DNA of 64,000 nucleotides from Acanthococcus lagerstroemiae (lineage: Eukaryota > Arthropoda > Insecta > Hemiptera > Eriococcidae): the NCBI GenBank assembly GCA_031841125.1, contig CM063106.1, forward strand, positions 15,624,001 to 15,688,000, written 5' to 3'. Positions 15,129 through 62,640 of this stretch are shown here, piece by piece (within the stretch, counting starts at the first letter, position 1; every line of letters begins with the position of its first letter). The notes beneath the pieces were generated by a model. It was not told the DNA's origin. It did not search any database and saw only the letters and a program-made list of their open reading frames with translations. A program made the position numbers and the translations under genes.

Positions 15129-15562
15129 CTCTTTTCATGTGCTCTCACCCGAGCCCTGGAACCGCCCCTTCGAGCATTACCTCAGGGACATCGGGGAGCC
15201 TCATAGAGCTGTGTTAGCCCTCTTCTCTTCTGGCCGGGAATCGGCCTAGGTGAACTGCGCTATCTTCCTGTCGAATACCCGTATCACTAGCCCCGTGGTT
15301 TATGACAGTGAGTTCGACGAGCACCAGCAGGTAGCGCCTTACCCACTTACAGCTTTCAGATACTGGCGATCGATTACACACTTCTCAGAAGCCTCTGCTG
15401 TAAGTGGTTGTGCCTCTGTGTACGTTATCAGAATGCGGTGTTAGAATGTGAGACAAGTTCTTTCTTGCATTACTGATAACAATGCCGGCGTTGGGAATAG
15501 AACCCGGTGTCTTCGGGTTAGGAAGCCGAGTTCTTACCGCTACGCCATAGAGCCACGTCTTC
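15129..15562 (-). mobile_element. tRNA-derived SINE, family B, copy 1
   Basis: On the minus strand the head carries a CGTAGCGGTAAGAACTCGGC stretch (degenerate A box) and GGGTTCTATTCCC (B box). A spacer of about 270 bp follows, then the tail with AGAAGAGGGCTAACACAGC and GTGAGAGCACATGAAAAGAG. The whole unit aligns with 19905-20335. Target duplication not clear. Confidence 0.85.
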
Positions 15563-19904: not shown

Positions 19905-20335
19905 TGGTGGCTCTGTGGCGTAGAGGTAAGAACTCGTCTTCCTAACCCGAAGGCACCGGGTTCGATTCCCAACGCCGGCATCGTTATCAGTAATGTAAGA
20001 AAGAACTCGTCACACATTCTAACACCGCATTCTGATAACGTACACAGAGTCACAACCACTTACAGCAGAGGCTTCCGAGAAGTGTGTAATCGGTCGCCAG
20101 TATCTGCAAGCTGTAAATGGGTAAGGCGCTACCTACCGGTGCCCGCTGAACTCACCGTCATAAACTGCGGGGCTAGCGATACGAGTATTCGACAGGAAGA
20201 TAGCGCAGTTCACCTAGGCCGATTCCCGGCAAGAAGAGAAGAGGACTAAGGCAGCCCTAGAAGGCTCCCCAATGTCCCTGAGGTAATGCTCGAAGAGGCG
20301 GTTCCAGGGCTCGGGTGAGAGCACATGAAAAGAGT
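19905..20335 (+). mobile_element. tRNA-derived SINE, family B, copy 2, with 10 bp target duplication
   Basis: Bordered by CGTCCGGTCG at 19895-19904 and 20336-20345. The tRNA-like head has GGCGTAGAGGTAAGAAC (A box region) and GGGTTCGATTCCC (consensus B box). A spacer of about 270 bp carries CGCATTCTGATAACGTAC and other blocks shared with copy 1. The tail has AGAGGACTAAGGCAGCCC and ends GTGAGAGCACATGAAAAGAG. The perfect duplication marks it as a fairly recent insertion. Open frames across it are spurious. Confidence 0.9.
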
Positions 20336-20617: not shown

Positions 20618-20623
20618 CCTACT
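20618..20623. other. Target-site duplication, left (CCTACT)
   Basis: CCTACT directly precedes the first base of the Polinton and is repeated exactly at 36534-36539. Six bases is the duplication length made by Polinton integrases. Confidence 0.95.
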
Positions 20624-20895
20624 AGTAGATACCTTATGTATGTTCTAGCGCAGTAATGATTTCTCTTACTTTTTCCCCCATTTTTCAGTTCTCAAGAAAA
20701 AATAAAAATTCTCTTAATTTCCGTATTGAATATTTAACTATTTTTAAGGATAATTTTAATCATTTCATCCTATTTTCTCATCTCCTCTAGTTTGAAAATT
20801 TTATAAATGTTGTATCCAAATTATATCAATTTCCTATCTTTCAACTCTTTCTCTTTATTAAAAATCAAATCAACAAAAATCAACACACAATCAAC
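20624..20895 (+). repeat. Polinton left terminal inverted repeat (272 bp)
   Basis: Reverse complement of 36262-36533. I read both through and found no mismatch. In protein-primed replication the terminal repeats act as origins; that role is inferred here. Confidence 0.95.
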
Positions 20896-21318
20896 CATTT
20901 TTTTCAAGACAACGCAACAATACTTACAGATTCATCCGCTTAACTATTCACTGAATAGGGTAGGTTATTTGATCGAATGTATAGCAAATTTGGTTTAATT
21001 AGGTCTCCACGAAATAGTAATGCTTCTTCAAATACTACCCAAAACGCTTATCGGTTTATCCGTTCAACTAGTCGTTGAATAATGAAGATTGTAAAAAGAA
21101 TCAATTGATGAAACAAACTTTTTGCATTGATTTACTCGATTTCTGAACCCTGATATTTCAACAAGGATAGTCCAATTTCTGATTTAAAAATAAATTAGGT
21201 AATAACACACAACGGTGAGTGACATTGTTTCGAGGTTTTTAATATTAATAAAAGGAATCTGAAAAAAGTGGACTGTATATTCTTTCCACAACGAAAACAT
21301 ACACTACTTATTAACTTA

Positions 21319-24300
21319 TTACTTTTTCCTTCGCTGATCCTGTCGACTTCTACGGGGTTTTCTTTCTGTGTAGCAGCTTCGGCTTCCAGATGGGCTTCGA
21401 GTACTACGTTGAGATCGGTTTTTTTTTCTGTAAAATTGGCTTCTACTGCGAGATCTTTTAACAGATGGGCTTCGGCTTCCAGATGGGCTTCGAGTTCTAC
21501 GTTGAGATCGCTTTTTTTTTCTGTAAGATTGTCTTCTACTGCGAGATCTTTCAACACCTCTCTGACGTGAGTATGATGACTGGCTAGAATTGTTTGAAAA
21601 AGCGGAACTGGTACGTTCATCACGATCAGAATATTCTGAACCAGAGGGAAATTTATCATAGTTTCGTATGAATGGGAACACTCTAAATTTCCGGACACTG
21701 ATCCCTGCTTCATTCGCCTTCAATTTTTCCAAACTCTTTATGATCTGAAACAGAAAATTATTTTTAAAATTAGTTTTTATCGAGTTTACTAGTTCATTAT
21801 AAGTTTTCCAAGTCTTACATCAGACACGATGCTCTCATTCATTGTATCAATACGGAAAAAAACTTCGTTTTTATAATCATTACTCCTGTTCAGCGGAAAG
21901 TAAAAGTTATTCATCATTTTACCGTGATTACAAGCCTGAAAAAAAGTTGAAATGATATTTATGTTAATGGTATAAATCATAGTAAATTTCTATTTTTGAA
22001 TTATGATAACGTTTACAAACCTCTTTCATTCTATTTATTACATCGACTTCCGAGGTCTCCGAAAGGTCAAGTTTGATATTACGAATTTGTAGAAAATAGT
22101 GTCCGGTTTCTTCAATAGAATCTGAAATAGAAATCAATATTTGAGTAGCTTATTATTATAAAAAGACTAATGTTTGTAGTTGTAGCGACAGAAAACAACG
22201 CACCGTATTTTTCCTCATTTATCTGTAAAGCGGTTTTCACCAATGGTACGTCGGTATCTTCCACTTTTGCGTATTGAAAGAAAATTTGAAGTTGTGCTTC
22301 ATTAAATAAGCGTGACTTAGACTCCATATGGGATACACTTCCGGATAAATTTTTGAAAATGTTTGCCATCAATTTTGACACTTTGCGAATTTGGTGATCA
22401 TTCTTGAATTCTTGTTGTAAAATGTATGCTGCCGGCGTCACTTGATACTTTAAACTCAAATACCATGCCTCCTCGCGCGGCAAATACGAAGCATTACGCA
22501 AGTAGGGTGGTACAATTTGTTTTTCTCGAACCTCGAAATATGGTCGTAAGTCCAATTTCGTTTCTTCTTGAAGAAGTCTTTCTTCAAGTATTTTCTAAAA
22601 AATATACAAAAATACATTGTTGAGTTCGATAAACGATACAAATCTGTTTTACAAAAATAAGCAGGGAAGTTCAATTACAGGTGGAAATAAAACGATGCCT
22701 TGAAATTCATCCACTTGCTACACAAATGGACGATCAAACAATGTACACTTTTTAATCAAAGAAGCTTATTTTTGAAACGAATCTCAACACAATAAATTGA
22801 AAAAATTAAAGCTCTACGATGAAAAATTTCCCTAGATTTAAAAAAAGGTAAGTCATTTTTCAATCATAGATCTCGGAAAATGGATTGATTCGATCGATAC
22901 GATGAATTTTGAACATGAAATTACCCATTTCCACAATCCTGACAATTTTGAACATGAAATTACCCATTTTCACAATCCTGATATCTTTTGAATGCTGTTC
23001 ATTCGTGGATTATTTCATGAAAAATGAGAAAAAAATCGACATACGCAGAATTTTTACCTCCCAATATGTTGTAGAGGTCTTGAAAACATTATCTCGAAAG
23101 ATATATTTTTTATACAAAGGCTATTAATAATCTGAAAATGGCTTTCGTATTTAGCTCATGATGACTCAAAAATAACTCGTACGTGAAAAAACTTATCAGC
23201 TACGAATTTTTACAGATAAATCAATCGACACACGATCTCAAGAAAATCTGAATGAATTTCGTAACCTGGAGAATATCACATGATATTTCGTCGACAAAGG
23301 GGAAAAATAAACGATACGATTCGATAAATAAATTGGTGACACGAGGAATCTGAAATGTGTTCGTATTCGGCATATTATGATTCGGAAATCAGTATTTAAA
23401 CACCCGTAAAAGAAACTAAGACCTCAGTTTTAGATACGAATTTTCACGAACATTGGACGGGTAAAACAATTTGGATCTCGAAATAATAAAAACAACGCTT
23501 TCAAATACTGCTCTAGCTTGTGTTTCAACTCAGATGTCTCGCATTCATATCAGAACGTTTACTGATTAGTTGCAAATAAGGAATACCTATTTCAAACACT
23601 ATTCTAGCTTGTCAGTTATCTCACGCTCATACTAGAACGCTTCGAAACATTCAACTACATATTATACACCGTTCGTTGAAACATAAGAGGTTCGTAAGTA
23701 TCGAGGTAGTAACGAATTCCTTGCAACTCTATTTCAAGTCCGAAAGTTCAAATCTGAATTACGAAAATCGTAATGAGACCGCTATTAAATTATTCCGTCA
23801 TTTTCAGCTACAGACAATGAGAAACTTAAATCTCAAAATAATAGGACGATGCATTGAAATTCATCAATCTCCTTCGAGAAAAGGTAAAAGTAAATGACTC
23901 GGTGAACTAATCTGTTTTACGAAAATAAAAGGTAGGAAAGCTCAATTTTGAATCGATTTCAACATATTAGATTGAGAAAGACAACCATTTCGCGAGAAAA
24001 TAATATTCGTACACGTTTCGATCATGCGTTTTGAAATATAAATTGAGTTCAAAACTAAACGTATGCTTATACAAATAAAAAGTAGATTACTTTTTTCAAT
24101 ATTTCTTTCTGATTTTCAACGATTAGTTCTTCGTTTTCCAATTCAGCGTCAATTAAGTTCTCGATTAATGCTTCAATTTTACCTCGCAGTTCCCCTCTGA
24201 TCTCTGCATCTGATACTTTGAGTAAGGTCTCACGGAATAGTGCATTTTTCTGAAATATCAGAAATAGTTGAAAATATGTGTATCTCAAAATGTATAAGTT

Positions 24301-24831
24301 AAGTAAATAATTACGTACTTCGTTTATGAGAACCATTCTGCCCTTTTTCTTTTTTGGCGGACTCGTAGATTCACTCTCACAGCCTACAGAAAACAAAATA
24401 TCAATAAGTTTCAAATAATGTAGCTACTCAAAACTGAAAGGTGATGATATGTTTTCCATCGACTAGGTATTTTTATGAATCATGACAGAACACAGTCGTG
24501 AACGAACTCGAACGACAATCAAGTACGTCTACAGCTCTTCTTTCAATCTTTCATAGTGAATTAAGAAAAGTTCCCGGGACCGGATATGTTAGAGATTTGT
24601 TCTTAGCTGGAGATCGAATTCAGTACTCAAACTAATAAAATGAAATGAAATAGAATTCCGTATATATATACCGAGTACGAACATAACAAACATTTCTGTA
24701 TTCGAGTTGTAAGGGAGCCACTTGATTAATGAATTAAGACTTGAACTACTGATGAATAGTGAGCAAATAAAATACGTAATATTTAATGAATGGAACTTAC
24801 TTTCATCGGGAATTTCCTTTACAGCATCCAT
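21319..24831 (-). CDS. Spliced seven-exon gene in the Polinton, 429 codons, Arg/Ser-rich C-terminus, function unknown
   Basis: The coding exons on the minus strand are 24801-24831, 24319-24383, 24091-24249, 22204-22594, 22021-22121, 21819-21935 and 21319-21744. Every intron starts GT and ends AG, phases agree at every join, and the sum is 1290 nt with one terminal stop, so the model is self-consistent and intact. The N-terminus has an NLS-like PPKKKKGR at about residues 20-27, then a Glu/Leu-rich coiled-coil-like stretch (about 33-100), a mixed central region, and from about residue 310 a Ser-rich then Arg/Ser/Lys-rich tail with two near-repeats of RSRS..YRKK and RTRSPSGSRS. An in-frame ATG at 24981 would add 50 residues with a hydrophobic start; I prefer 24831 because what follows is acidic and soluble. 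RS tails occur in nuclear RNA-processing proteins, but I do not recognise the family. Splicing implies nuclear pol II expression. Host-like base composition suggests capture from a cellular genome. Confidence 0.75.
22595..24090 (-). other. Intron 3 of the seven-exon gene (1.5 kb)
   Basis: Donor GTAATC after the 24091 exon end, acceptor TTTTTTAG before 22594. It contains a 38 bp tandem duplication (about 22902-22984, TTTTGAACATGAAATTACCC units) and no further convincing exon. Confidence 0.7.
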
Positions 24832-24993
24832 TATTCTCTTATAACGATATCGAGAAGTAGCAGTAGCAGTGTGCCTGTAGCAAACAACCGTATTATAAGA
24901 AAAGAATAGAAACATCAAAGGAACGAGAACACGAACATCAACACCAAGAGAAAAGAGAAATATACGCAGACTGTCGAACATTCCGAATAAGTG

Positions 24994-25001
24994 TGACGTC
25001 A
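24994..25001. promoter_or_regulatory. CRE-like palindrome TGACGTCA upstream of the spliced gene
   Basis: A perfect TGACGTCA lies about 165 bp upstream of the chosen start codon of the minus-strand gene. A second lies at 32984-32991, about 50 bp upstream of another minus-strand gene. CREB/ATF-type factors bind this octamer; use here is inference. Confidence 0.35.
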
Positions 25002-25163
25002 GATCAAAAGCGTAAACAATTTCAGTTTATCCGCATGGAGCGCTATCGTTAATTTTTTTTTTGGAATGAGCGCTAAGAGAGTAGCAGTTTCTCTTTCTTG
25101 TTTCTTCATTTTTAAAAATTCTGTTGTAACCTTGTGACTATTGTACATTACCAATTTTTAAAG

Positions 25164-25559
25164 CTATGAAAAAAACTTCTCATATTTTTTATTAAATTCA
25201 GTGAAATTTTTTATACTACCAGTACTTTTTCTATTTTGATGACTGTGGTTTACAGATTGGCTGGAAGATTGTTGTGTAGAACTAGTCTTATTTTTATTTT
25301 TAGTATCACTATTAGGTTGACTTGAATTTTGACAGGATTTATGAGTAACGTTATTTGTATCATTCTTAAATGTGTATTGACCAAGACAATTTCGGCTCAT
25401 TTCATAACTTATTTTCCTATTATTGTAGGGTATTTTATGCTCTTTTAAATATTTTAAAATAGTCTTTTCAGTTATTTTATATTTCAAAGAAAAACTTCTC
25501 ACGCTATTTTTCTTGAAGTTGTATTCTTTTAATATTTGAACCAGCTCGTTAGGAGTCAT
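25164..25559 (-). CDS. Small HTH protein, 131 codons
   Basis: Residues 1-45 form a homeodomain-like helix-turn-helix pattern: a first helix (NELVQILKEYNF), a second (VRSFSLKYKI) and a recognition-like helix (TEKTILKYLKEHKI). The remainder is low-complexity, rich in Asn, Ser, Gln, Thr and Lys, ending in a short basic segment (FTEFNKKYEKFF). It is AT-rich in all codon positions, unlike the spliced gene to its left. It is divergent to the coiled-coil gene at 25801, with a microsatellite between them. A DNA-binding or regulatory role for the element is a structural inference; no specific family recognised. Confidence 0.65.
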   Translation of the reverse strand: MTPNELVQILKEYNFKKNSVRSFSLKYKITEKTILKYLKEHKIPYNNRKISYEMSRNCLGQYTFKNDTNNVTHKSCQNSSQPNSDTKNKNKTSSTQQSSSQSVNHSHQNRKSTGSIKNFTEFNKKYEKFFS

Positions 25560-25629
25560 TTATTTATATAAAATTTTTATTTTTACCATACCATACTTCC
25601 ATACAATATTACCTTATTTCAATACCATA

Positions 25630-25770
25630 TTACTGTACCTTACCATACCTTATTACCTTACCTTACCTTACCTTACCATACCATACCATACCATACCATG
25701 ATACCATACCATGTATACCATACCATACCATACCATACCATACCATACCATACCTTACCTCACCATACAA
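25630..25770. repeat. Microsatellite (TACCA)n / (TACCT)n
   Basis: Degenerate pentanucleotide runs between the divergent HTH and coiled-coil genes. The purest run is at about 25672-25755. It occupies the likely promoter region of both genes. Confidence 0.9.
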
Positions 25771-25800
25771 TATAAAAAATATAAAATTTTATTCTAATAA

Positions 25801-26418
25801 ATGGAAAGCCAAATAAAAAGATACATGCCCTCAAAAGTCGAGCTAGAAGGTCTAGATAGAATAATTTCAAAAAATAAAGAATTAGAAGAATTGATAAGAG
25901 ATGAGGAAAGTAATTTAGAGAGAATAATTCAAGCTATTGATGGATTAAAAAATATAAATACCAATATGAAAATTATTATGAAACAGTTCTTTATAGCTCT
26001 ACAACAAACAAGTATGACTTCAGATATTTATAAGTATGCCAATTTTAAGAATCAAGAATTGATAGAGAATCTACTTGAGAGAGAGGAAAAATATAAAAAA
26101 ATTATAAAATCTCAAGCTGAAAAGCATAATGATAATTCTGGAATTGAAGAACTAAATAATGTCTTCTCAACAATTATTGTAGATTCTAAAGATAAAAAAA
26201 TATCAAAATATATGACGAAAACTTTGAAAGATATTAAATTTCATGATGATTTCAAGCCTATATTTTCAGAAATAGGAACTAAAGAATTAACTCGTGATGA
26301 ATTGAAACAAATGAAATCTGATCCTAGAAAAGGACCTAGATTTAATAATATCAAGAAAATTACAACTGTAAATGTTCCTAGTCTAAGTAATGATGCTACT
26401 ATCATACAACAAAATTGA
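25801..26418 (+). CDS. Coiled-coil protein of unknown function, 205 codons
   Basis: Very charged, rich in Lys, Glu and Ile. Residues about 15-65 and 85-105 have heptad-like spacing (KNKELEELIRDEESNLERII, then LLEREEKYKKIIKSQAEK). The C-terminal third contains a conserved-looking short basic segment, SDPRKGPRFNNIKK. No signal peptide or membrane segment. It is the first plus-strand gene of the AT-rich core and is followed 350 bp later by the zinc protein. Family not recognised. Many Polintons encode small coiled-coil proteins of unknown role, so nothing more specific is claimed. Confidence 0.7.
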   Translation: MESQIKRYMPSKVELEGLDRIISKNKELEELIRDEESNLERIIQAIDGLKNINTNMKIIMKQFFIALQQTSMTSDIYKYANFKNQELIENLLEREEKYKKIIKSQAEKHNDNSGIEELNNVFSTIIVDSKDKKISKYMTKTLKDIKFHDDFKPIFSEIGTKELTRDELKQMKSDPRKGPRFNNIKKITTVNVPSLSNDATIIQQN

Positions 26419-26771
26419 ATACATAGGTATGGATCTACTCATGCTAGTAACATTAATATTCTATTAAGATTTCATGTCGAATTTGAGAAGGTTTTATGTC
26501 TATTTTGTGAAGGTTTATTCATCAAATATAATTTGAACGTAATGCAGACATAATTTGAACCTAATTTGGATGTAAATTGAATGGAATGGAATTTTAATTC
26601 AGACATAATTTGAGTCTAATTTAGACGTATTTTAGGATGGTTTTAGGATGGTTTTATGCCTATTTTAGGAAGGTTTTTTCCTTATTAAATTCTTATTAAA
26701 ATTTATTTCTTTTAAATACCTAGTTGTATATAACCATCTTATACAAGTTGCTGTATTAGTTAAAGGTTAAG
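26419..26771. promoter_or_regulatory. Intergenic region with TTATTAAA motifs and degenerate short repeats
   Basis: Contains degenerate AGACATAATTTGAA and AGGATGGTTTTA units. A doublet CTTATTAAAT/CTTATTAAA lies at 26681-26700, about 72-91 bases before the next start codon. The same pair, order reversed, lies at 27232-27258 just before PolB. This could be the element's promoter motif. Confidence 0.45.
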
Positions 26772-27224
26772 ATGGAACTTGTTGATACACTCGCGTCAAC
26801 TAGTGATTATATTTTACGTGATACTTGTAAGTCAACTATGTCAGATTCAGAGAATAGTAAAGCTATTAACAAAATGTTAACAGAAAAAGGATCAACTTTT
26901 AAAGAATATAATGTTGATGAATTTTTACAAAAGTTAATGCTTACAATACATTTGCTTGAAAATGGAAAATATTGCACTAAATGTAAAAATAATAAAAATA
27001 TAGAAGAATTTGCTAGAAATCAAAACTGGTGTAAAGAATGTAAGAACACATTATTTAAAGAATACTATAACAGAAATCAAGAAAAAATGAAAGAAAATTT
27101 GAAAAAAGATTATGAAAAAAGAAAAAACCTAATGATATGTACTTGTGGTAAAGTCATAAATTCTGTATCTTACAAAGCACATTTAAAAACAAAATCTCAT
27201 TATAATCTTCTCAATGAAAAATAA
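26772..27224 (+). CDS. Cys/His zinc-binding protein, 150 codons
   Basis: Two metal-site patterns are visible. Residues about 74-96 have CTKCKNNKNIEEF followed by WCKECK, a CxxC...CxxC knuckle like that in endonuclease VII-type and giant-virus zinc proteins. Residues 118 to 145 contain CTCGKVINSVSYKAHLKTKS followed by H, a C2H2-like finger of the type frequent in large DNA viruses. A Lys/Glu-rich linker joins them. No catalytic HNH His-Asn set is evident, so nuclease activity is not claimed. It ends only 45 bases before PolB, as in compact viral genomes. Nucleic-acid binding is the likely role. Confidence 0.72.
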   Translation: MELVDTLASTSDYILRDTCKSTMSDSENSKAINKMLTEKGSTFKEYNVDEFLQKLMLTIHLLENGKYCTKCKNNKNIEEFARNQNWCKECKNTLFKEYYNRNQEKMKENLKKDYEKRKNLMICTCGKVINSVSYKAHLKTKSHYNLLNEK

Positions 27225-27231
27225 AAATATT

Positions 27232-27258
27232 CTTATTAAATTTTTTTCCTTATTAAAT
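27232..27258 (+). promoter_or_regulatory. TTATTAAA doublet before the polymerase gene
   Basis: CTTATTAAA at 27232-27240 and CTTATTAAAT at 27249-27258, 11 bases before the PolB start codon. A further copy is at 31480-31488 just after PolB. Recurrence at three gene borders suggests a transcription signal. Confidence 0.4.
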
Positions 27259-27269
27259 ACAATTTAAAA

Positions 27270-30200
27270 ATGAATTCTAAAAATCAAGTTTTAATAAGTG
27301 TTATACAAAATGAGAGTGGAAAAAGAGATACAAGTATTGCTCAATGGATTCAGTTTTTTAAAGTGCATAATTTCTATGCAAATAAAACAACAAGACAAAT
27401 AGAACACTATTTAAGAAAGTATAGAATTTTTATAGCTTTTAGAGGAAGAGAAGTAGTTGAAAAGTTAAATGAATTGTATTTCATATTATTACCAAAATTA
27501 ACTCAATCCAGATTACCTGATCCAAATATATTGGAAATTACTTTCACATTGACAAAGGAGGAAGTAAATACATGGCTTACTGGAACTCCATTCAAGTTTG
27601 AAGATAATAATGAAGATATATTTGGATCAAATAGGAGAGAGAATGATTTAAAAATTAGACCAAGGGTTGTAGATGAAAATTTTAGAAGTAGACATATACA
27701 ATTTGAAATTCAAAATGAATGGGAAATTCAAGACTTAAAAGAGTTTTTAGATATTATGAAAAAACCTACTTTTGGACTTCTTAAAAAATGGATACATTTA
27801 CATGATGGAATTAGAGCTAATTTTTGTGTAAGTGCAACCTATGAAAGAAGAGGTCATACAGAAACCATTGAGACTGATACAATGCATTTACAAACTACAA
27901 ATTACATATTTCTTCGTGAATCAAACTTGGATGAGATGTATGATAATGTTATAGACTATATAATAGGAAGACATGAAAATATACAGGATAATTTAGAGGG
28001 TACTCAATGGGTTTTAATATCAATTAATAGTTTTAGAATTAATATAAATAGGTATGATCCGCTTAGAGCTGGTTCTTACATTGAACTCCCCAAAATTCTA
28101 GCAAGTAAGAAAGCTATCATAAACATTAAAAATGAGAATGATAATAAATGTTATTTATGGTCCATTTTAGGCGGTCTATTTCCAGTAGATAAAGATCCAC
28201 AAAGAGTAGCTAAATATAAAAAATATGAACATATTTTTGATAAAGCTTTAGAAGGGATTGAATTTCCAATGAAAGTTCAAAATAATAATAAATTTGTGAA
28301 TAGAGTTAATAATCTCAATTTAATTGAAGGAGGTTTATCTATTAACATATATCATCATAATAATCAATACAAAATTCAACCTTTATCAGATATAACAAAG
28401 GATGAAAAGAAAAATCATATTGATTTACTATTTCTTAAAGATAATTCAGGAAATTCTCATTACTGTCTGATTAAAGATTTATGGAAATTAGTAGGGAAAC
28501 AAGTTACCCAAAATTGTAAGAAGAGATATCTTTGTAAAATGTGTTTAAATAGTTTTCTATGTGAAAAAATATTATCTGATCATAAAAATTATTGTGGATT
28601 GAATAAACCTGTCAAAGTAATTTTACCTAATAAAGCAGATAATATTGTTGAATTTAAAAATTATAATCATTCAATGAAAGCTCCATTTGCTATATATGCT
28701 GATTTTGAGAGTCTTATAAAGAAGCTTAATCAAGCAAGAGAATTGAATGTTAAGATTGAAAAACTAAGTAAAAAATTGAATAAAACTAAAGAAGAAGTTG
28801 AAAAGTATGAATCTTATACAATAAAACTTCAGAGACATTTTCCAATTAGTTTTGTTTATTATATTAAGTATTCTAATGGAGAAATTAAAGAGAATCTATT
28901 TGAATATTTTGGTTTAGATGCTCCAAAGAAATTATATGAAAAATTAAAAGAAGATGTATTATTTATTGCGAGGGAATATTTAGATAAGAAAATGAAAATG
29001 AAAGAATTATCTGAGACACAAAAGATGGAATATAAATACTCTAAAACATGTCATATCTGTGAAAGAAAACTTGAAGATACTCCACCTCTTGTGGAAAAAG
29101 AAATTCGAGTATGGAATAAAAAAATTGATATTATTTGTAGTATTTTATTGAAGATTGAAGATGAAGATAGAAAAAAAGAACTCAATGATGAACTTTCAAA
29201 ATTAAAACAGTTAGTTGATACTGCACGAGCAAGTGAGGTTTTAAATAAAATGAAAGTTCGAGATCATGATCATTTAACTGGGGAATATAGAGGAGCAGCT
29301 CATAGTAACTGTAATCTTAATTATAAAGTTCCCAGATTTATTCCTATTTATTTTCATAATTTTTCTGGATATGATGCTCATTTATTTGTTAAAGAATTTG
29401 GAGAGGATTATAATAATATTAAATTAATCCCAAATAATGAAGAAAAATATATATCATTTTCTAAAATTATAAAATATGATTCTGGGATAAGGAATACAAA
29501 AGGTGAAATAATTAATTATAATATTGAGTTGAGATTTTTAGATTCATATAAATTCTTATCAAGCTCCCTATCTGAGTTGGCTAAAAATTTAAAAAGATGT
29601 CACTTTAAAAACCTAAAGAGATGGTTTAATGAAAAAGTAGCTAAAAACCTATCTGAAATGGAAAGAAAATATTTGTTTAAATTATTAAGTAAAAAATTAG
29701 CTTATCCATATGATTATATGAATTCATTAGAAAAGTATAACAAAACAAAATTACCCTCGAAAGAAAACTTTTATAATCTATTAAATGATGAGCATGTTGA
29801 TGCTGGAGAATATTATTATGCAGAAGAAATTTGGAAGTATTTTAATATTCAAAGTATGAAAGAATTTACAATGTTATATAATATAATAGATGTACTCTTA
29901 CTAACTGATATTATGGAAAATTTTAGGGAAACATCACTTAGAATATATAAATTAGATCCAGTTTGGTATTACACAACTCCTGGATTTGCTTGGGATTGTA
30001 TGCTGAAAACTACTAAACAAAAATTGGAATTATTAACTGATGTGGATATGCTATTAATGTTTGAAAGGGCTAAACGAGGAGGAATTTCTCAATGTTCAAA
30101 TAGATATGCAAAGGCTAATAATAAATATATGGGAAAGAAATTTGATAAAAATAAGGATTCTGTATTCATTCAATATTTGGATGCAAATAATTTATATGGA

Positions 30201-31460
30201 TGGGCTATGTGTAAGTATTTACCTTATGGAGGATTTGAATGGAAGAATCCAGAATATTTTGATGAGAATAGAATTATAAAAATGAAAGATGATCAGAAAA
30301 TTGGATATCTTTTTGAAGTGGATTTGAAATATCCTAAAGAGTTACATGACAAACATTCTGATTTACCTTATTGTCCCGAGAATGTAATTGATAATAATCA
30401 ACTTCCAAAATTATTTACTACATTATATGATAAGAAGAAATATGTTCTGCATTACTTAAATCTTAAGCAGGCTCTTAAAGCAGGATTAAAATTGGAGAAA
30501 ATACATAGGGTTATAAAATTTGATCAATCTGATTGGATGAAAGTGTATATTGAAAAAAATACTGAATTAAGACAAAAAGCTAAGAATGACTTTGAAAAAG
30601 ATTTCTTTAAATTAATGAATAATTCTGTTTTTGGAAGAACAATGATGAATGTTAGAAAGCACGTAGATATAAAATTAATTTCTGAAGGTAATAAATACAC
30701 AAAATATGTTTCAAAACCAAATTTTGAGAAATCAACATTTTTTGGAAAAAATCTTGCAGCTGTACAAATGAGAAAAACTGAAATAAAATTCAATCAACCA
30801 ATTTATGTGGGAGTAGCTATTTTAGATATTTCAAAAACATTAATGTATGATTTTTATTATAGATTGAAGGAAAGATATGGAGATAGAATAAAACTATTAT
30901 ATACGGATACTGATTCATTAATCATTGCTGTAAAAACAGAAGACTTTTATGAAAATATGAAAGGAATGATTGATGAATTTGATACATCAGATTATAAAAA
31001 AGATAATATTTATGGTTTACCACAAGTCAATAAAAAGGTATTAGGTAAGTTTAAAGATGAGATGAATGGAAAAATTTTAGAGGAATTTATTGGACTAGCT
31101 TCAAAATTATATTCTAATAAAGTTTTTGCATCAAATGATGATCTAATGAAAAAAGCTAAAGGAGTAAAGAAAAGTATTGTTAAAAATCAGATAACTCATG
31201 ATGATTATAAAATATGTTTAGAAAAGAAAATAACTAAGACTATTAAACAGAAAATGATAAGGAGTACAAAACATAATATTTATACCATTGAACAGAATAA
31301 AAGAGGATTAAGTTCATTTGATGATAAAAGATGCTTGGTTGATGGGCAAACTGATACAATACCATGGGGTTATTGTAATACAATACCAAGAGATAAATTT
31401 ATTGAGCATTTGAAAAATCTTGGGAGAAAAGCAACTAGTAAATCAATTGTGACTACTTAG
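27270..31460 (+). CDS. polB: Protein-primed family B DNA polymerase of Polinton type, 1396 codons, intact
   Basis: Synthesises the element's DNA with its own 3'-5' exonuclease and, by family, starts from a terminal protein. Visible parts: an OTU/papain-like patch with NDNKCYLWS (Cys294) and SHYCLI (His397); a C2H2-like knuckle CKMC (422-425); exonuclease I as DFE (Asp478, Glu480); an inserted endonuclease VII/HNH-like segment with CHIC (594-597) and VRDHDHLTGEYRGAAHSNCN (from 663); exonuclease II as HNFSGYD (Asn697, Asp702); exonuclease III as YNIID (Tyr870, Asp874); polymerase motif A as LDANNLYGWAM (Asp971); motif B as KLMNNSVFG (1114-1122); motif C as YTDTDS (Asp1213, Asp1215); and a KxY-like SKLY (Lys1279). 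All catalytic Asp/Glu residues are present and there is no stop or shift, so it may be functional. Motif wording matches insect Polinton/adintovirus polymerases. The OTU and HNH labels are inferences from short motifs. Confidence 0.95.
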   Translation: MNSKNQVLISVIQNESGKRDTSIAQWIQFFKVHNFYANKTTRQIEHYLRKYRIFIAFRGREVVEKLNELYFILLPKLTQSRLPDPNILEITFTLTKEEVNTWLTGTPFKFEDNNEDIFGSNRRENDLKIRPRVVDENFRSRHIQFEIQNEWEIQDLKEFLDIMKKPTFGLLKKWIHLHDGIRANFCVSATYERRGHTETIETDTMHLQTTNYIFLRESNLDEMYDNVIDYIIGRHENIQDNLEGTQWVLISINSFRININRYDPLRAGSYIELPKILASKKAIINIKNENDNKCYLWSILGGLFPVDKDPQRVAKYKKYEHIFDKALEGIEFPMKVQNNNKFVNRVNNLNLIEGGLSINIYHHNNQYKIQPLSDITKDEKKNHIDLLFLKDNSGNSHYCLIKDLWKLVGKQVTQNCKKRYLCKMCLNSFLCEKILSDHKNYCGLNKPVKVILPNKADNIVEFKNYNHSMKAPFAIYADFESLIKKLNQARELNVKIEKLSKKLNKTKEEVEKYESYTIKLQRHFPISFVYYIKYSNGEIKENLFEYFGLDAPKKLYEKLKEDVLFIAREYLDKKMKMKELSETQKMEYKYSKTCHICERKLEDTPPLVEKEIRVWNKKIDIICSILLKIEDEDRKKELNDELSKLKQLVDTARASEVLNKMKVRDHDHLTGEYRGAAHSNCNLNYKVPRFIPIYFHNFSGYDAHLFVKEFGEDYNNIKLIPNNEEKYISFSKIIKYDSGIRNTKGEIINYNIELRFLDSYKFLSSSLSELAKNLKRCHFKNLKRWFNEKVAKNLSEMERKYLFKLLSKKLAYPYDYMNSLEKYNKTKLPSKENFYNLLNDEHVDAGEYYYAEEIWKYFNIQSMKEFTMLYNIIDVLLLTDIMENFRETSLRIYKLDPVWYYTTPGFAWDCMLKTTKQKLELLTDVDMLLMFERAKRGGISQCSNRYAKANNKYMGKKFDKNKDSVFIQYLDANNLYGWAMCKYLPYGGFEWKNPEYFDENRIIKMKDDQKIGYLFEVDLKYPKELHDKHSDLPYCPENVIDNNQLPKLFTTLYDKKKYVLHYLNLKQALKAGLKLEKIHRVIKFDQSDWMKVYIEKNTELRQKAKNDFEKDFFKLMNNSVFGRTMMNVRKHVDIKLISEGNKYTKYVSKPNFEKSTFFGKNLAAVQMRKTEIKFNQPIYVGVAILDISKTLMYDFYYRLKERYGDRIKLLYTDTDSLIIAVKTEDFYENMKGMIDEFDTSDYKKDNIYGLPQVNKKVLGKFKDEMNGKILEEFIGLASKLYSNKVFASNDDLMKKAKGVKKSIVKNQITHDDYKICLEKKITKTIKQKMIRSTKHNIYTIEQNKRGLSSFDDKRCLVDGQTDTIPWGYCNTIPRDKFIEHLKNLGRKATSKSIVTT

Positions 31461-31937
31461 GAAAGCGCAATAAAATTAACTTATTAAAGAGGATAAGACA
31501 CTATGTTGCATCACTAGAAAATTTTTTATTTTGAGACTAATTTTTGAGGTACTTTCAATCCTAACCTTTTAATTTTATGTTTCATAATATCAATAAAAAA
31601 TCTATTTGGAATGTTTTGAAATGCAATAATTAGGTACCTATATTTATATGGAAAATTATATTTTTAATCAGTCAAAAAAATTATTTTAAAAGTTAATTTG
31701 ATTACAAAAGGGGAAATTGAAAAAATAATTTATAATTTTGATACTTCATCCTTTTTAACATATAAAAATTTTGCTTTCTATACATTGGAATTTATTTCCT
31801 AAATGAAGATGAAATATGATGTACCTACTTCAACATAAAAATGCATTGATGGAATACTTTTTACAATATTAAGCATTTTTTAAAAATTATTTACCCACCT
31901 TTGTTCAAAATTTTAAAATAATATTCAGGAAGAAATT
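31461..31937. other. AT-rich spacer after PolB
   Basis: No gene seen. A CTTATTAAA motif is at 31480-31488 and several AATAAAA-like signals follow the PolB stop. Confidence 0.5.
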
Positions 31938-32225
31938 ATGTGTTGTGAAGATATTGAAATTACTATAGAAGATAACCCTGAAGAATTTTTTGAATTTATA
32001 AGAGTACTTAAAAATCTTGAAACTTTCTATGAAATATCAATTTTCAATAAAGAAAAAACAAAAGCGATTGAAAACTTGGAAAATTGCTTCCAATTACCAT
32101 TTTTCAAAGAAGAATTTAATTTTTACAATTCTCTTGATTATGATGATTTTGATTATGATTACAGAGGATATAATGAGGATGACGTATTTTATTTGTCTGA
32201 AGATTTTTATACATGGTTCCTTTAA
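31938..32225 (+). CDS. Small acidic protein, 95 codons
   Basis: Rich in Glu, Asp, Phe and Tyr, with an aromatic-acidic C-terminal half (SLDYDDFDYDYRGYNEDD). No signal peptide or membrane helix. Same direction as PolB and immediately before a second acidic gene of similar style (32312). Both have a D/E..N(N)PEE motif near the start (EDNPEEF here, NNNPEEY there), which suggests they are distant duplicates. Function unknown. Confidence 0.6.
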   Translation: MCCEDIEITIEDNPEEFFEFIRVLKNLETFYEISIFNKEKTKAIENLENCFQLPFFKEEFNFYNSLDYDDFDYDYRGYNEDDVFYLSEDFYTWFL

Positions 32226-32311
32226 GAAAGAAAAATTTTAATGTAAGTGCTGCATAACTTATACATAGCTACCAATAAAAACTGATTTTTTTAAAAATAA
32301 ATAAATACAAA

Positions 32312-32601
32312 ATGGAAAATGATAATGAAGATATTATAATTGATTATAATAACAATCCTGAAGAATATAATCTAGAAGATTTATATGATTTTGAATTTTA
32401 TGAACCCCTGATCCTGATTATGAAAGTGATGATTCTGGAAATGATTCAGACCCAGAAAATTATTTCAATAATTTAAATGAATGTAGACCTAAGTCATTTA
32501 TATATGGTTTTGATCCTGAAGATTTTATTTCTGACCCTGATTCAGAAGCAGAACCTGATGAGGGAATACAAGAGGATTTAATGGAAGATGATTCAGCCTA
32601 A
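32312..32601 (+). pseudogene. Second small acidic gene, broken by a frameshift in a C run
   Basis: The ATG frame encodes 31 strongly acidic residues up to a CCCC tract at 32405-32408, then turns into unlike sequence and stops at 32474-32476. From the same tract another frame stays open to 32601 and has the same Asp/Pro/Glu/Ser-rich style (DPDYESDDSG, then SDPDSEAEPDEG). The simplest reading is a single-base length change in the C tract of a gene of about 97 codons. Programmed frameshifting at the tract or an assembly error are alternatives. Confidence 0.65.
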
Positions 32602-32616
32602 AATTTCATTTAAATT

Positions 32617-32934
32617 TTAAACACCATTAGGTAAATAATTAATTTCAATGTCAGATTCTAAATCATTTTCTGGTATAGGTTTAACCTTATTTAAATCTTT
32701 AATCTCTTTTTCTATCATTTTTGATAAAACACTCAAATGAGCTACAATATTTACCATTAATTTTTTATACTTGACTTGTTTAGATTTAGATAAATGTTGA
32801 ATTTTATCTGAAAGTGGGTCCATTAGAGTTTCATAATTTGATTTTGTATAATCAATAGGTTGTTTGAAATATGGTATAAAGCTTTCAAAATCAAATTCTT
32901 TCAAGTCAATAGAAGAGTTCTTATACACTTCCAT
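32617..32934 (-). CDS. Small protein of unknown function, 105 codons
   Basis: Convergent with the acidic genes; the two stops are only 15 bases apart. The central helix-like segment LMVNIVAHLSVLSKMIEKEI is recognisably repeated in decayed form just upstream (32985-33118), so the family was duplicated in the element. Lys/Glu-rich, no Cys, no membrane segment. A TGACGTCA octamer lies about 50 bases upstream of the start. Family not recognised. Confidence 0.65.
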   Translation of the reverse strand: MEVYKNSSIDLKEFDFESFIPYFKQPIDYTKSNYETLMDPLSDKIQHLSKSKQVKYKKLMVNIVAHLSVLSKMIEKEIKDLNKVKPIPENDLESDIEINYLPNGV

Positions 32935-32984
32935 TTATGTAATAAAAAATTTTAATTAATACATTTTAAGGACTCCTTCAATCT

Positions 32985-33118
32985 GACGTCATGATTACGA
33001 GTAGTATTTTCTGGTATATTTAAATTTTTTATTTCATTTTCAACAATTCTGGAAAACTTTAAATGAGCAACGATATTTATCATACATTTAGAGAATAATT
33101 TATTCTGCTCCTTAGATC
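32985..33118 (-). pseudogene. Decayed paralogue of the 105-codon gene
   Basis: The minus-strand reading gives MINIVAHLKFSRIVENEIKN followed by LNIPEN. This aligns with VNIVAHLSVLSKMIEKEIKD and PIPEN of the neighbouring intact gene. No full open frame remains. Confidence 0.7.
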
Positions 33119-33207
33119 ACACAACATTAGCACTCCTACCTACAGAAATAATTCAGTGTTGCTACTTTATCTGCTTTGAACTATTAGTCGCTCTTAGATT
33201 ATCATGA

Positions 33208-33298
33208 CATGACTACTGCGTAACTAGCCTACGTTTAGTCTACGTGTTTGTGTTCCTCATGTTCGTTTAGTCTACGTGTTTGTGTTCCTCATGTCCCG
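33208..33298. repeat. 33 bp tandem duplication
   Basis: CGTTTAGTCTACGTGTTTGT followed by GTTCCTCATGT occurs twice in succession (from about 33230 and 33263). Confidence 0.8.
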
Positions 33299-33458
33299 AT
33301 CTGCGAATTTTTCAGAAAAAGTGCTCAAATGTGACATGATAATTTCAGCACTTTTTTGTACAATTTGTGACAATTAATTCCACCAATCAGAGACGAGAAC
33401 GGGTTTTTGTCAGTCTGCTGCCACCAGTGTCACAACTGGGCAGTTTTTAATACCATTT

Positions 33459-33521
33459 GTGACAGAAATGTGCTCATTTGTGACAGAAATGTGCTCATTT
33501 GTGACAGAAATGTGCTCATTT
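33459..33521 (+). repeat. 21 bp unit x3
   Basis: GTGACAGAAATGTGCTCATT plus T is repeated three times exactly. A further partial copy lies at about 33587-33608. Confidence 0.9.
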
Positions 33522-34380
33522 GTGTCAATTAAAAAAATGTCACATTTAAGCAGTTTTTTGCTTACTGGGCAGTTTTTAATGCCACTTGTGACAGAAATGT
33601 GCTCATTTGTGCCATTTTAATAAGTGTCACATTTACGCAGTTTTTTGCTCGCCTCTGCAGGCGCTGGTTATAGCCCCCGCTGCACCCTCAATTGTAAGCA
33701 TCGCATAGGTATATTACATATATTACAGAAATATATTTCTGCCATAAGAATAAATAAATACACGATACCGCAAAGCGAGTGTGGTAGGAGCGCGATAACA
33801 ATGTAAATAATGTAGTCAATATTTACAAAAAGCACGTAGAAAATGTATATTTTACATACATACAACAAAATAATAATTATAGATAGGTACTAAAAATAAA
33901 GTACAGGACTAAAAACAACCCCTGACTAAGTTGTTCAACTTAATTGGACGCTATATTCAGCGTCAAGGAACCAACCAACATTTGTAAACAAAATGAGTTA
34001 TTAGTATGTTTGGAAAGAGCGTAAAAAGTAGAATTTTTCAAAATTGGGCTGCCGATTCAAAAATGTGTACTCACATTGAAAAATGCTTATCAGTAAACGC
34101 TATGTCATATAGTTTCTACCAAAGTATTGAGTTCTTATTTATATGCACTTTTGGTTTTGGTTGATGTTGGAGCGCTCCTTCTCAGAATACAAACTGCCAG
34201 CAATTCCAAAATGCACGGATATTATTCTCTCAGCGCAGTGCAATCACAAAATACAGGTATCATGCAGCTATGTTGATTCCAGCTTATCTATCAGGTGAAC
34301 AAGCGTAGATACTTATAAAGGATGTTATTCTACAGAAAAATTCCGCCAGCAAAGATCATCCGGAGGAAGATTATTATATA

Positions 34381-34592
34381 CTTATCCTGTGTATTTTTTC
34401 CTCTTTCAGCCTGTTCTGTTATTTGGAGAGCTTCATTGTCTATATACGATCGAGTATTTTTTGAAATCACTGGTGAACAGCGTGAGGAACATACACGCGC
34501 TGTTTACCAGTGATTTTGAAATATATACTCGTATATATACTAAGAAGCTCCAAATAACAGAACAGACTGAAAGAGGAAAAATACACAGGATA
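34381..34592. repeat. Long imperfect hairpin, about 95-100 bp arms, 15 nt loop
   Basis: The left arm (34381-34482) runs from CTTATCCTGTGTATTTTTTC to GGTGAACAGCG. The right arm (34498-34592) runs from CGCTGTTTACC to GAAAAATACACAGGATAA. The arms pair along their length with scattered mismatches. A transcript would form a long double-stranded stem. Open frames over it are by-products of the palindrome. Confidence 0.85.
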
Positions 34593-35084
34593 ATAATTAT
34601 AATTAGGTAACTTACTCGTTTTCATTGTAGCCATGTATTTCATTCGCACACGTGGTGGTCAAGGAGCACAGCAACACACGAACGAAATATATTTAAATAT
34701 AAAATCATAAATTATAAGTAGTCGTCAAATTTCAAATTAAAACACAGAAATGAGAGCACAATCACAATCCCAGTTAGTACAAGACAATATATGTTCAAAG
34801 TTGAATTTAAGTATAACGATTAATTATTTAATTTCTAGGTTCTCTCAAATTGCCACAAATAAGCAGTTTTCTGCTTAAATATGACAACATAAACTGTCAC
34901 ACATAAGCATATTTGTGACACTTTAATGTCACGGAGGCCGTGTGACATATTTCCAGTGATAAAAGGGTCGGATCTAAATATTTGCCACACTTTTACCACA
35001 AATTTGCGAAATTTACAGACTTGAGCACTTTTTTTTGCCACAGATAGTGTCACAAGCTTAAAAACGCAGATCGGGGTTCGTGAG

Positions 35085-35798
35085 TTGGCAAAAATTTTTA
35101 ACTGGTTCAACATGACGATCGTGAATAACATTTCTCTTGAATCTTCTCTTAAGGAATTAAATTCTCTTGTTAAAATCTTTACTACTGCGTCTCAAAGTGA
35201 AGAAAAACGTAAAGAATTAGAATCGGGTGAGTTATGTCTTCCGAAAATGAAGCATACGAATAAAATATTGAAATCGATAACGAAACGAAAGTCTCGTTCG
35301 AGCAAGAAACTGTGCGGGCAAGATCTTCATTTGTATTTGATATCATTATTAATTCGTTATGTACCAAGTAAAAATGAGTTTCCACTTTATTCTGAGAATA
35401 ATTTTGATGAATTGAGTGAATTTCTTCGCGGTACAGGTAAGAAAATTTTGAAATTCAGCTCAAAGAAATTATTTTCCGATTACTGTGGGTACGGATATTT
35501 TTTGAATAAAGTTTTTCATCTGTATAGAGAAAAATTAGACAGAAAGGAGGTCAGTATACCATTTTCCATTTTTGTTGAAAAAGAATTTGGTATTTCAGAC
35601 CGTCATGCGTTAAGATTAAGACGTATAGGTGAAATCTGGTTTCAGTATAAGCGTCTAGAAAATCTAGCTATAACCATTGACGAGTTTTATCAACGTATCA
35701 AAGAAATTCAGTCATTAATGAATAATCATAGAAATTTAGCCGCATATTGGAAAGACGATTTAGCTTCCGATAGTGTGGATATAATTAAAGTTGAATAA
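35085..35798 (+). CDS. Unknown protein, 237 codons, next to the right terminal repeat
   Basis: Intact frame; an internal ATG at 35112 (start MTIVNN) would shorten it by nine residues. The protein is basic in its first third (KSITKRKSRSSKK at about 65-77, NLS-like). A C-terminal half reads FSIFVEKEFGISDRHALRLR and then RIGEIW. The 'GIS.RHA.RL..IGEIW' pattern looks like a helix-turn-helix of the kind seen in phage and large-virus DNA-binding proteins, but I cannot name a family. No membrane segment. Composition is less AT-rich than the PolB core and more like the spliced gene in the left arm. It is the only long gene in the right arm. A DNA-binding role is a weak inference. Confidence 0.68.
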   Translation: MAKIFNWFNMTIVNNISLESSLKELNSLVKIFTTASQSEEKRKELESGELCLPKMKHTNKILKSITKRKSRSSKKLCGQDLHLYLISLLIRYVPSKNEFPLYSENNFDELSEFLRGTGKKILKFSSKKLFSDYCGYGYFLNKVFHLYREKLDRKEVSIPFSIFVEKEFGISDRHALRLRRIGEIWFQYKRLENLAITIDEFYQRIKEIQSLMNNHRNLAAYWKDDLASDSVDIIKVE

Positions 35799-36261
35799 AA
35801 AATAATTAATTAAAATATTATATTGATCTATTATCTTCTATTCTCTTGTTCACTTGTACTATACGTCATGTTGAACCTTCTAATGTGAGCATTGGTGCGT
35901 CCCAACTCGCACATGAGAAACACAGAGGGAAAGGTTATTGTAACGGACGTCTATGCCTATTACATAGGTAACGGGTGATGGTGTTTGTTACATCTCATAA
36001 ACCGAAGAACAACGAGATTCGAAATCATTGATGACGTAGCAGACATGCATGTCTGGTCCGATTGAAAAGCAGTTCTTTAAATACGATTTTGATGACGTAG
36101 CAGACATATATGTCTGGTCTGGTTGAAAAGCAAAAGCAGTTCTTTAAATACGATTATCTTACATCAATATCAGATTTGTTGAAAGTTCGAAATAAAAAAA
36201 CTTCGATGTGTTTACATTTATTTTTTCATGAAAAACATAATAAAAATGATTAAAGTAGCTC
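35799..36261. other. Right subterminal region with duplicated palindromes
   Basis: Two 57-65 bp direct repeats (36030-36086 and 36091-36155) share GATGACGTAGCAGACAT and GCAGTTCTTTAAATACGATT. Each contains a 16 bp perfect palindrome: CAGACATGCATGTCTG at 36040-36055 and CAGACATATATGTCTG at 36101-36116. No gene. Confidence 0.8.
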
Positions 36262-36533
36262 GTTGATTGTGTGTTGATTTTTGTTGATTTGATTTTTAAT
36301 AAAGAGAAAGAGTTGAAAGATAGGAAATTGATATAATTTGGATACAACATTTATAAAATTTTCAAACTAGAGGAGATGAGAAAATAGGATGAAATGATTA
36401 AAATTATCCTTAAAAATAGTTAAATATTCAATACGGAAATTAAGAGAATTTTTATTTTTTCTTGAGAACTGAAAAATGGGGGAAAAAGTAAGAGAAATCA
36501 TTACTGCGCTAGAACATACATAAGGTATCTACT
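36262..36533 (-). repeat. Polinton right terminal inverted repeat (272 bp)
   Basis: Reverse complement of 20624-20895, ending GGTATCTACT. Short frames inside are the same chance frame found in the left repeat. Confidence 0.95.
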
Positions 36534-36539
36534 CCTACT
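36534..36539. other. Target-site duplication, right (CCTACT)
   Basis: Exact repeat of 20618-20623. Confidence 0.95.
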
Positions 36540-60690: not shown

Positions 60691-61580
60691 AAAATGAAAG
60701 AAAGAAAATGAATTAAAATGAATTTGATATCAGAGATTGAAATGGGATCGTAAAGAAATCAAAATAAAATTGAAACGAAATTGAAATGAAATCGACATGA
60801 AATTGAAATAAAATTGAAACGAAGGTGAAAAAAATTGAAACAACATTAAACTATGTCAAAACGAAATCGACATGAAATCGAAGCAAAACTAAAATGAACT
60901 AGATATGAGATCAAAATTAATTGGAAAAGAAAAGAAATTGATAGGAAATAAAAATGAAATAGAAAGAAACTCGAAATGAAATCAAAACAAAACTGAAATG
61001 AAAATGAAACAAAATTGAAATAATATTAAAACAAAATTGAAGAAAATCGAAACAAAATTAAACGAAATTGAAATGAAATTGTATGGCACTGATATGGAAT
61101 CAAAATGAAATTGAATCAAATCAAAATAAAATGAAAACGAAATTGTCAAAGTCGAAACGAAATTGAAACAAAATTGAAGTGAAGTTGATATGAAGATGAA
61201 ATGAAATAGAAATAAAACCGAAATGAAATCAAAATGAATTCAAAATGAAATTGAAATGAAATTGAAATGAAATTGAAATGAAATTGAAATGAAATTGAAA
61301 TGAAATTGAAATGAAATTGAAATGAAATTGAAATGAAATTGAAATGAAATTGAAATGAAATTGAAATGAAATTGAAATGAAATTGAAATGAAATTGAAAT
61401 GAAATTGAAATGAAATTGAAATGAAAATGAATAATTGAAATGAAATGAATGAAATGAAATTGAATGAAATTGAATGACTAAATGAATTGAAAGAATGAAA
61501 AAATGAAAAATTGAAATAAATAAGTTGAATAAAAATGAAAATAATGAATAAATAAAGATCAAATAAAATGAAACAATGAA
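60691..61580. repeat. AAATTGAAATG satellite, pure core flanked by degenerate units
   Basis: From about 61245 to 61425 the 11 bp unit AAATTGAAATG repeats almost without error. On both sides it decays into GAAAT/GAAATCAAAATGAA variants. A minus-strand open frame of Phe-Ile-Ser-Ile repeats over it exists only because 11 bp repeats lack stops in that frame. Confidence 0.95.
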
Positions 61581-62149
61581 TAAATGGAATGAACATAAAA
61601 TGATAACTAAAAATACTACACCTTTTCATGAAATGCAGCTCGGATTTCAATTTAGACTGTCGCGAAACTCGGGCTATCCGGCCCAGTTGGTCCGCAGAGG
61701 AGGCTGGTCAGCTGTTGGGCAGCGGGACCCGGCGGTCACAGATCGTAAGTTCCTTCGTAAAGTAAGCCGGAAAAGGGCACAGCAGCACTTTGACCTGCAT
61801 TGGTTTCGGGAGGAACACAGACGATATTGGATTCGCGAAGGTGTATTATTAATTAGGCCGCGTGATTACCTGTGAAGGCATTCGGACAGTTCATTTTGCT
61901 AACTGAAAGATTTTAGCGCGACAAGTGTGTAGTCATTTCAAGATGATAGTTGTGTGCTCAATTTGATGTTCGCAGTCCCGGGTTTTTTCGCAATGATTTC
62001 GTGCAATTGTAGAAAATCGAATTTCATGAATATGGCGAAAAGGGTGTACAGGAATGTTTCACATTTCATTTTATTTTTCGTGAAACGCACCTTGAAACGC
62101 TGCATGAAATAGGAAATATGATTAGGGTGTAATCCCATTATATAGTCGA
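61581..62149. other. Less repetitive island between two satellite blocks
   Basis: Contains a GC-richer patch at 61630-61860 with a 99-codon open frame lacking any domain. Not called a gene. Confidence 0.5.
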
Positions 62150-62640
62150 AAAGAAATTCACATAAAACTGAAACGAAATTGAAACGAAATAGAAACAAAA
62201 TTGAAGTGTAATTGAAATGAAATTGGAATGAAATAATGGAAATGAAAGAGAAATAAAATTGATTCAAAATCAGAGTAGTGGAGTAGAAATGAAATAGAAA
62301 TGAACTCAGAATGAAATCAAAACGAAATGAAATTAAAATTAAATGTAAAACTGAAATGGAATTGAAATGAAGTAAAAAATAATATTGAAATTGAAATTAA
62401 AATGAAATGAAATCAAATAAATTGGAATAAAATCAAAATGAAATCAAAGTAAAATCGAAATAAATTAGAATGAAATCGAAATGAAATTGTATCAATGTGG
62501 AAAGAAAACTAAAACGAAATTGAAATAAAATTGAGTAAAATTGAAATTAACTTAAAGGAATTATGAATGAAATTGAAATGAAACTGGAATGAGATTGATA
62601 TGAAATTGAATAAAAAAATAAACAAAAATAGATACACGAA
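62150..62640. repeat. Second, degenerate GAAATTGAAATG satellite block
   Basis: Same unit family as 60691-61580 but without a pure core. Confidence 0.9.

Follow-up and report, generated by a model that had tools for sequence, protein, structure and literature searches.

The stretch of DNA analysed here (the window: 64,000 nucleotides of Acanthococcus lagerstroemiae contig CM063106.1, C1:15624001-15688000 in our numbering) hosts a mobile element of the Polinton type that encodes a family B DNA polymerase, PolB. This element belongs to a family that we consider to be, probably, a PolB-encoding satellite, likely dependent on complete Polintons of the same genome for the integrase that inserts its DNA. 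The element has the AG..CT ends and the long terminal inverted repeats of a Polinton. As a first-pass annotation of the window had described, these repeats are identical (272/272 bp, with divergence from base 273) and are enclosed by an exact CCTACT target duplication. From left to right the element carries a terminal repeat, a predicted spliced gene on the minus strand, p131, p205, p150, PolB, p95, p105, p228 and the other terminal repeat (Table 1). The same annotation saw a recent insertion of 15.9 kb. Near-identical copies elsewhere confirm that it is recent, but the length has to be corrected: a nested insertion accounts for part of it, so the native length is about 14.1 kb. This stretch (33295-35075) is absent from all seven other copies with this right arm, which have one GT where the window has two, and is a later insertion into the window copy. 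It has inner TGTGACA-like repeats and a GT duplication.

Table 1. Features of the element, in positions of the window.
Feature	Position	Strand	Remarks
Left target duplication	20618-20623		CCTACT, exact 6 bp
Left terminal inverted repeat	20624-20895	+	272 bp; start AGTAGATACC
Predicted spliced gene	21319-24831	-	429 aa; seven coding exons (24831-24801, 24383-24319, 24249-24091, 22594-22204, 22121-22021, 21935-21819, 21744-21319); GT..AG junctions, open frame; Arg/Ser-rich tail
Hinge	22803-23470		Conserved intron segment; recognisable in copies with differing exon blocks
Conserved core	24959-33110		About 25% GC, CpG-poor; right border approximate
p131	25164-25559	-	In 8/8 fetched full-size copies
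p205	25801-26418	+	Open frame; in fetched copies
p150	26772-27224	+	Rich in Cys; weakly similar to phage endonuclease VII families (best E 5.7e-5)
PolB	27270-31460	+	Family B DNA polymerase of 1396 aa; predicted to be protein-primed; single open frame
p95	31938-32225	+	Acidic; open frame
p105	32617-32934	-	Open frame
Nested insertion	33295-35075		1,781 bp; ends CCCGATCTGCG/CGCAGATCGGG; GT on both flanks; foreign to native element
p228	35112-35798	+	Eight relatives in other contigs
Right terminal inverted repeat	36262-36533	-	272 bp
Right target duplication	36534-36539		CCTACT, exact 6 bp

The polymerase is well supported by its relatives, 1356 of which were found at E<=0.001 among 6847 candidates, with named examples from Aphis, Planococcus, Uroleucon, a leafhopper and a spider. 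In a 17-sequence alignment the residues of the motifs that we take to be the exonuclease and polymerase motifs are invariant. The first 500 residues were modelled with a mean predicted local distance difference test score (pLDDT) of 74.7. The best viral match to this N-terminal model (E 8.4e-20) is a protein from an adintovirus, with C2H2-type as its only annotation, followed by the PolB of a MELD virus and then that of an adintovirus, with nine matches at E<=0.001. We predict that the enzyme is protein-primed. Residues 594-685 (window 29049-29324) form an endonuclease VII-like insertion that is sub-threshold in Pfam and has its Cys/His residues kept in aligned relatives. Among the relatives, a frame 79% identical (P0005) lies on a contig assigned to a genome bin of Spiroplasma ixodetis, likely insect contamination, and dozens of others, 40-51% identical (P0035-P0120), lie on long ENA contigs and represent another large amplification elsewhere. 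Searches of viral contigs and genome contigs with PolB alone and with p228 led nowhere.

No other Polinton core gene was recognised beside PolB. A six-frame Pfam scan of the element, with X at stop codons, found no family of integrases, packaging ATPases, proteases or capsid proteins; its sole signal, with matches listed to E<=0.1 and E<=1, was the sub-threshold endonuclease VII match inside PolB. Pfam alone is a blunt test, which also misses the PolB domain of this group, and as a positive control it does detect the rve, A32 ATPase and double jelly roll families in complete Polintons of the same genome. Eight proteins of these complete Polintons, which we call helpers, had no tblastn match (E<=0.05), whether the window element or 27 fetched pieces from satellite copies and older relatives were searched, and in the same search they do retrieve each other's copies. 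Seeds from aphids (integrase, protease and pX-like) and from two IMG/VR elements gave only chance-level matches in the element. None of the 33 satellite-type PolB places (the best 33 of 773 candidates) has an integrase match within 12 kb. By sequence searches, then, the element has no recognisable RVE integrase, packaging ATPase or Ulp1/adenain-like protease as in Polintons, and no capsid gene as in virophages and Polinton-like viruses; nor do its six frames hold a Pfam family for the parvovirus-type capsid or NS gene that would accompany PolB in a bidnavirus. The first-pass annotation, which described an intact PolB and no other recognisable core gene, is upheld by the open 1396-aa frame, the six-frame scan and the searches with helper proteins.

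The element is one member of a recently mobile, multi-copy family. We searched the 658-Mb assembly (438 contigs), from which pieces fetched for comparison are labelled with L-numbers, for copies that share the terminus, as had been proposed with the initial description. The whole 272-bp repeat has at least 69 matches (the best 40 of 120 candidates scored), and its terminal 20-mer, AGTAGATACCTTATGTATGT, occurs exactly 55 times. Among these occurrences are 23 inverted pairs separated by less than 50 kb, 20 of which contain a PolB match; 16 pairs are 13-16 kb long, and the 15 of that class other than the window measure 13.4-14.9 kb. Nine further copies were fetched in pieces. Eight fetched copies are full-size, and L027 is a 5.7-kb deletion derivative without PolB. 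All nine have perfect 6-bp duplications, every one different, so that the duplication is seen in 10 of 10 copies with the window included. Full-length, open PolB frames that are 99-100% identical number at least 15 (the best 33 of 773 candidates scored), besides broken and diverged copies; in 11 other copies PolB differs from that of the window at 1-9 of 4188 nucleotides and has no stops. The six core genes (p131, p205, p150, PolB, p95 and p105) are detected in all eight full-size copies, partial matches counted, and diverged versions of the core are present in two older families.

Some side observations concern the ends of these elements. The left arms L025 (201-761) and L021 (201-760) have a second copy of the terminal repeat in tandem, about 80% identical. 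Three near-match end pairs just 0.8-2.2 kb long (C4:65404966-65407155, C184:26743-28645 and C5:66926872-66927685) are possibly derivatives resembling miniature inverted-repeat transposable elements (MITEs), at a stringency of 2-3 mismatches at which chance matches arise.

Complete Polintons are abundant in the same assembly. An aphid Polinton integrase query finds at least 150 places, 148 of 150 without stops (the best 150 of 1304 candidates scored). Two helpers, L050 and L051, contain a PolB end, an ATPase, two unassigned frames, an integrase, a phospholipase/pX-like frame, a protease-like frame and a 188-aa frame; L052, the continuation of the L051 copy, adds a capsid frame. Their Pfam matches are to rve (E 1.1e-12), A32 ATPase (3.9e-7), PLA2-like (1.4e-5) and double jelly roll (7.4e-38), while that of the protease is weak (0.06); position only, with no Pfam family in support, suggests that the 188-aa frame is penton-like. 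Placing the helper end where the matches of many copies stop, we recognised 12 inverted terminal pairs of 14.0-16.4 kb, ten of them with an integrase match inside. Other helper families, for example at C8:62797451 and C6:12608266, have integrases 57-61% identical to that of the aphid. An integrase-bearing candidate helper, which a satellite would need, is therefore present in the same genome.

The multi-copy recent movement, the open PolB, the lack of a recognisable integrase and the helpers in the same assembly together lead us to read the family as a satellite. PolB would replicate the linear element, starting at the ends from a protein primer, and a helper integrase, likely acting in trans, would recognise the satellite ends, insert the DNA and make the 6-bp duplication; satellite packaging in helper capsids may also be possible. 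The earlier proposal was of a replication-competent lineage, either dependent on an integrase in trans or novel, and both options gain from the at least 15 open PolB frames, the moved copies without integrase and the abundant helpers.

Several observations weigh against a satellite. The PolB frame is open in four of the eight fetched full-size copies and broken in the other four. When the satellite terminal sequence was compared with the start of the one helper family read, AGTAGTATAG as against AGTAGATACC, only five leading bases were common (AGTAG), and an AG terminus is general in Polintons. The PolB end of the helper is only 41% identical to the satellite PolB over 76 aa, so the satellite is not derived from that helper. 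The model of the PolB N-terminus has no PDB match at E<=0.001, the weak top matches starting at E 0.004 and being mostly Y-family polymerases. Finally, p228 or other unassigned satellite proteins could act in integration, and two terminal pairs with unread contents, C2:16527649-16557409 (29.8 kb) and C2:17520823-17539826 (19.0 kb), neither with a PolB match among the best 33 scored, could hide an autonomous member.

The last two points lead to rival explanations. The family, plainly mobile without a known integrase, might be autonomous and encode an integrase of an unrecognised type among its unassigned proteins; p228, next to the right terminus, would be the likeliest candidate. The relatives of p228 in other contigs are 61-76% identical over their full length, and an older family has a further, diverged one, 49% identical, in its left arm (L040, 576-1274). 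However, p228 is absent from L023/L024, and among seven other carriers its frame is unbroken in four and broken in three (broken frames being a difficulty for the satellite reading too); its fold model, of poor quality (pLDDT 49), consists mostly of helices and shows no RNase H-like fold. Furthermore, 6-bp target duplications are a known trait of Polinton integrases. We regard an integrase role for p228 as unlikely. It is more doubtful still that the unread copies include an autonomous member, one that shares the ends and has an integrase, from which the copies seen derive by internal replacement. Unread terminal pairs of 19-43 kb do exist, but the integrase search gave one match only inside a long pair, C6:3968620-4011306 (42.7 kb apart). 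As the protein there (L050) is identical to that of L051, this pair is apparently a helper nested in a satellite, and in two older families, too, no integrase accompanies the core within the flanks read. The missing core genes and the nested insertion of the window copy could also be taken as signs of one decayed Polinton or of an artefact of assembly. This we find hardly credible, given the same anatomy in many near-identical copies with duplications of their own; the possibility named at the outset as a refutation, that the termini are artefactual, is excluded by the 23 pairs and the nine different perfect duplications.

The predicted spliced gene of the left arm consists of an N-block (the first three exons) and a C-block (the last four), and its hinge is 72-95% identical across copies in the best matches. 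Sixteen left arms were examined: L023 and L027 are without a hinge, L047 (N1) breaks off beside it, and the remaining 13 were classified into three N-blocks and three C-blocks, in seven of the nine combinations. These are C1N1 (the window), C1N2 (L011, L013), C1N3 (L044), C2N2 (L018, L025, L046), C2N3 (L020, L021), C3N2 (L015, L048) and C3N3 (L045, L049), while C2N1 and C3N1 were not encountered. Within a type the blocks are 95-100% identical, whereas blastn between types gives no match or only short ones (9-15% of the block at 68-80%). In the frames read, all 12 located N-block ends lie before GTA in phase 0 (those of L020 and L045 were not located), and all 12 located C-block starts follow AG, likewise in phase 0, so any N-block can be joined to any C-block without loss of the frame. 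That seven of nine combinations are seen indicates that the halves have been reassorted; the exchange would take place in the conserved intron, probably by recombination or template switching.

Other interpretations of the left arms were tried and rejected. L044 was considered as a single-copy C type; its sequence continues past the hinge into C1 before it stops, and it was counted as C1. L047, considered likewise, breaks off just past the hinge (nearest C2) and was left out. The by-eye likeness that would make the types one diverged family is unsupported against shuffles (z -1.4 to 1.8), with the exception of block C3 and the L023 frame (z 3.7, with 4 of 500 shuffles as high). A known host gene is weakly excluded as the identity of the left-arm gene, no convincing match having been found. 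The 429-aa product has no match at E<=0.1 among the best 7994 candidates by shared words, a list that Arg/Ser-rich words may have filled, and nothing convincing in PDB and Pfam. A basic stretch and the Arg/Ser-rich tail, both judged by eye, suggest that the protein may be nuclear, and our guess is that it would act as an accessory protein facing host or helper. More tentatively than the satellite reading itself, and with some doubt, we suggest that the family is a self-replicating satellite of endogenous polintoviruses that leaves integration, and perhaps packaging, to its helper. Its intron-hinged gene would reassort unalignable cassettes, as a counterpart, in an animal mobile element, of the host-range or immunity cassettes of phages, in an arms race with host or helper. 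The first-pass annotation recognised the element itself and overlooked the genome-wide family, the nested insertion and this two-block gene.

In comparisons with two older families the ratio of nonsynonymous to synonymous substitution rates (dN/dS) of p205 is 0.056 and 0.135, and between families that of p131 is 0.41 (on nine differences only), that of p150 0.32 and that of p105 0.26. These values are in keeping with purifying selection on the core genes. As separate frames none of the genes has a Pfam match, and p150 alone matched PHROGs below E 0.001. Just to the right of p105, at about 32965-33110 as judged by eye, is a partial paralogue of it (in other copies 50% over 42 aa), and a shorter p228-like frame was seen by eye in L025 at 872-1066. 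The CpG observed/expected ratio of the core is 0-0.74, mostly below 0.5 (250-bp steps, 25751 to 33000), and outside the core it is 0.75-1.54 in the window (2-kb steps; 28 of 32 steps). The core was considered as a separate mobile unit and rejected, as no terminal repeats were found around two diverged cores in the stretches read. Elsewhere in the window, an inverted repeat of 428 bp (15129-15556 and 19907-20334, 92% complementary, 4.35 kb apart) lies just to the left of the element and is possibly another terminal-repeat element, and long tandem arrays of AAATGAAATTG/GAAAT occupy 60706-62610.

Several known systems resemble the satellite in part. Polintons or Mavericks (Polintoviricetes) and adintoviruses have the same kind of PolB, long terminal repeats that start with AG, the 6-bp duplication and a length of 13-16 kb. 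The satellite differs from them in that no copy read has a recognisable integrase, ATPase, protease or capsid gene, and in its six other conserved genes of unassigned function and its modular spliced gene. In their accessible parts, published accounts describe Polintons as encoding PolB and a retroviral-like integrase (PMC6431247), and report nine Polintons without the major capsid protein (MCP) that also lack the protease and ATPase (PMC4028283). The latter share with the satellite the joint loss of all three; in the satellite the integrase is gone too, a loss unreported in the accessible part of that account. Virophages and Polinton-like viruses are small elements thought to depend on a helper, as we propose for the satellite, but they encode capsid proteins and the satellite has none that is recognisable. 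MITE-like non-autonomous terminal-repeat derivatives are, like the satellite, likely mobilised in trans through their ends, yet the satellite is 13-16 kb long, its PolB is open and dN/dS is below 1 for several of its conserved genes. In titles and abstract openings, a literature coverage that leaves out most subscription journals, we found no integrase-less PolB family of Polintons, nor a Polinton gene with reassorted exon blocks.

Among eukaryotic viruses, several groups have Polintons placed close to their root. A thriving lineage that keeps the polymerase and the ends, without genes for integration and packaging, would separate these functions from each other. As an instance of exon blocks being reassorted in a mobile element of animals, the two-block gene would be unusual. 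With helper and satellite in one assembly, in many near-identical copies, trans-mobilisation becomes directly testable and, if our reading is true, Polintons can support satellites.

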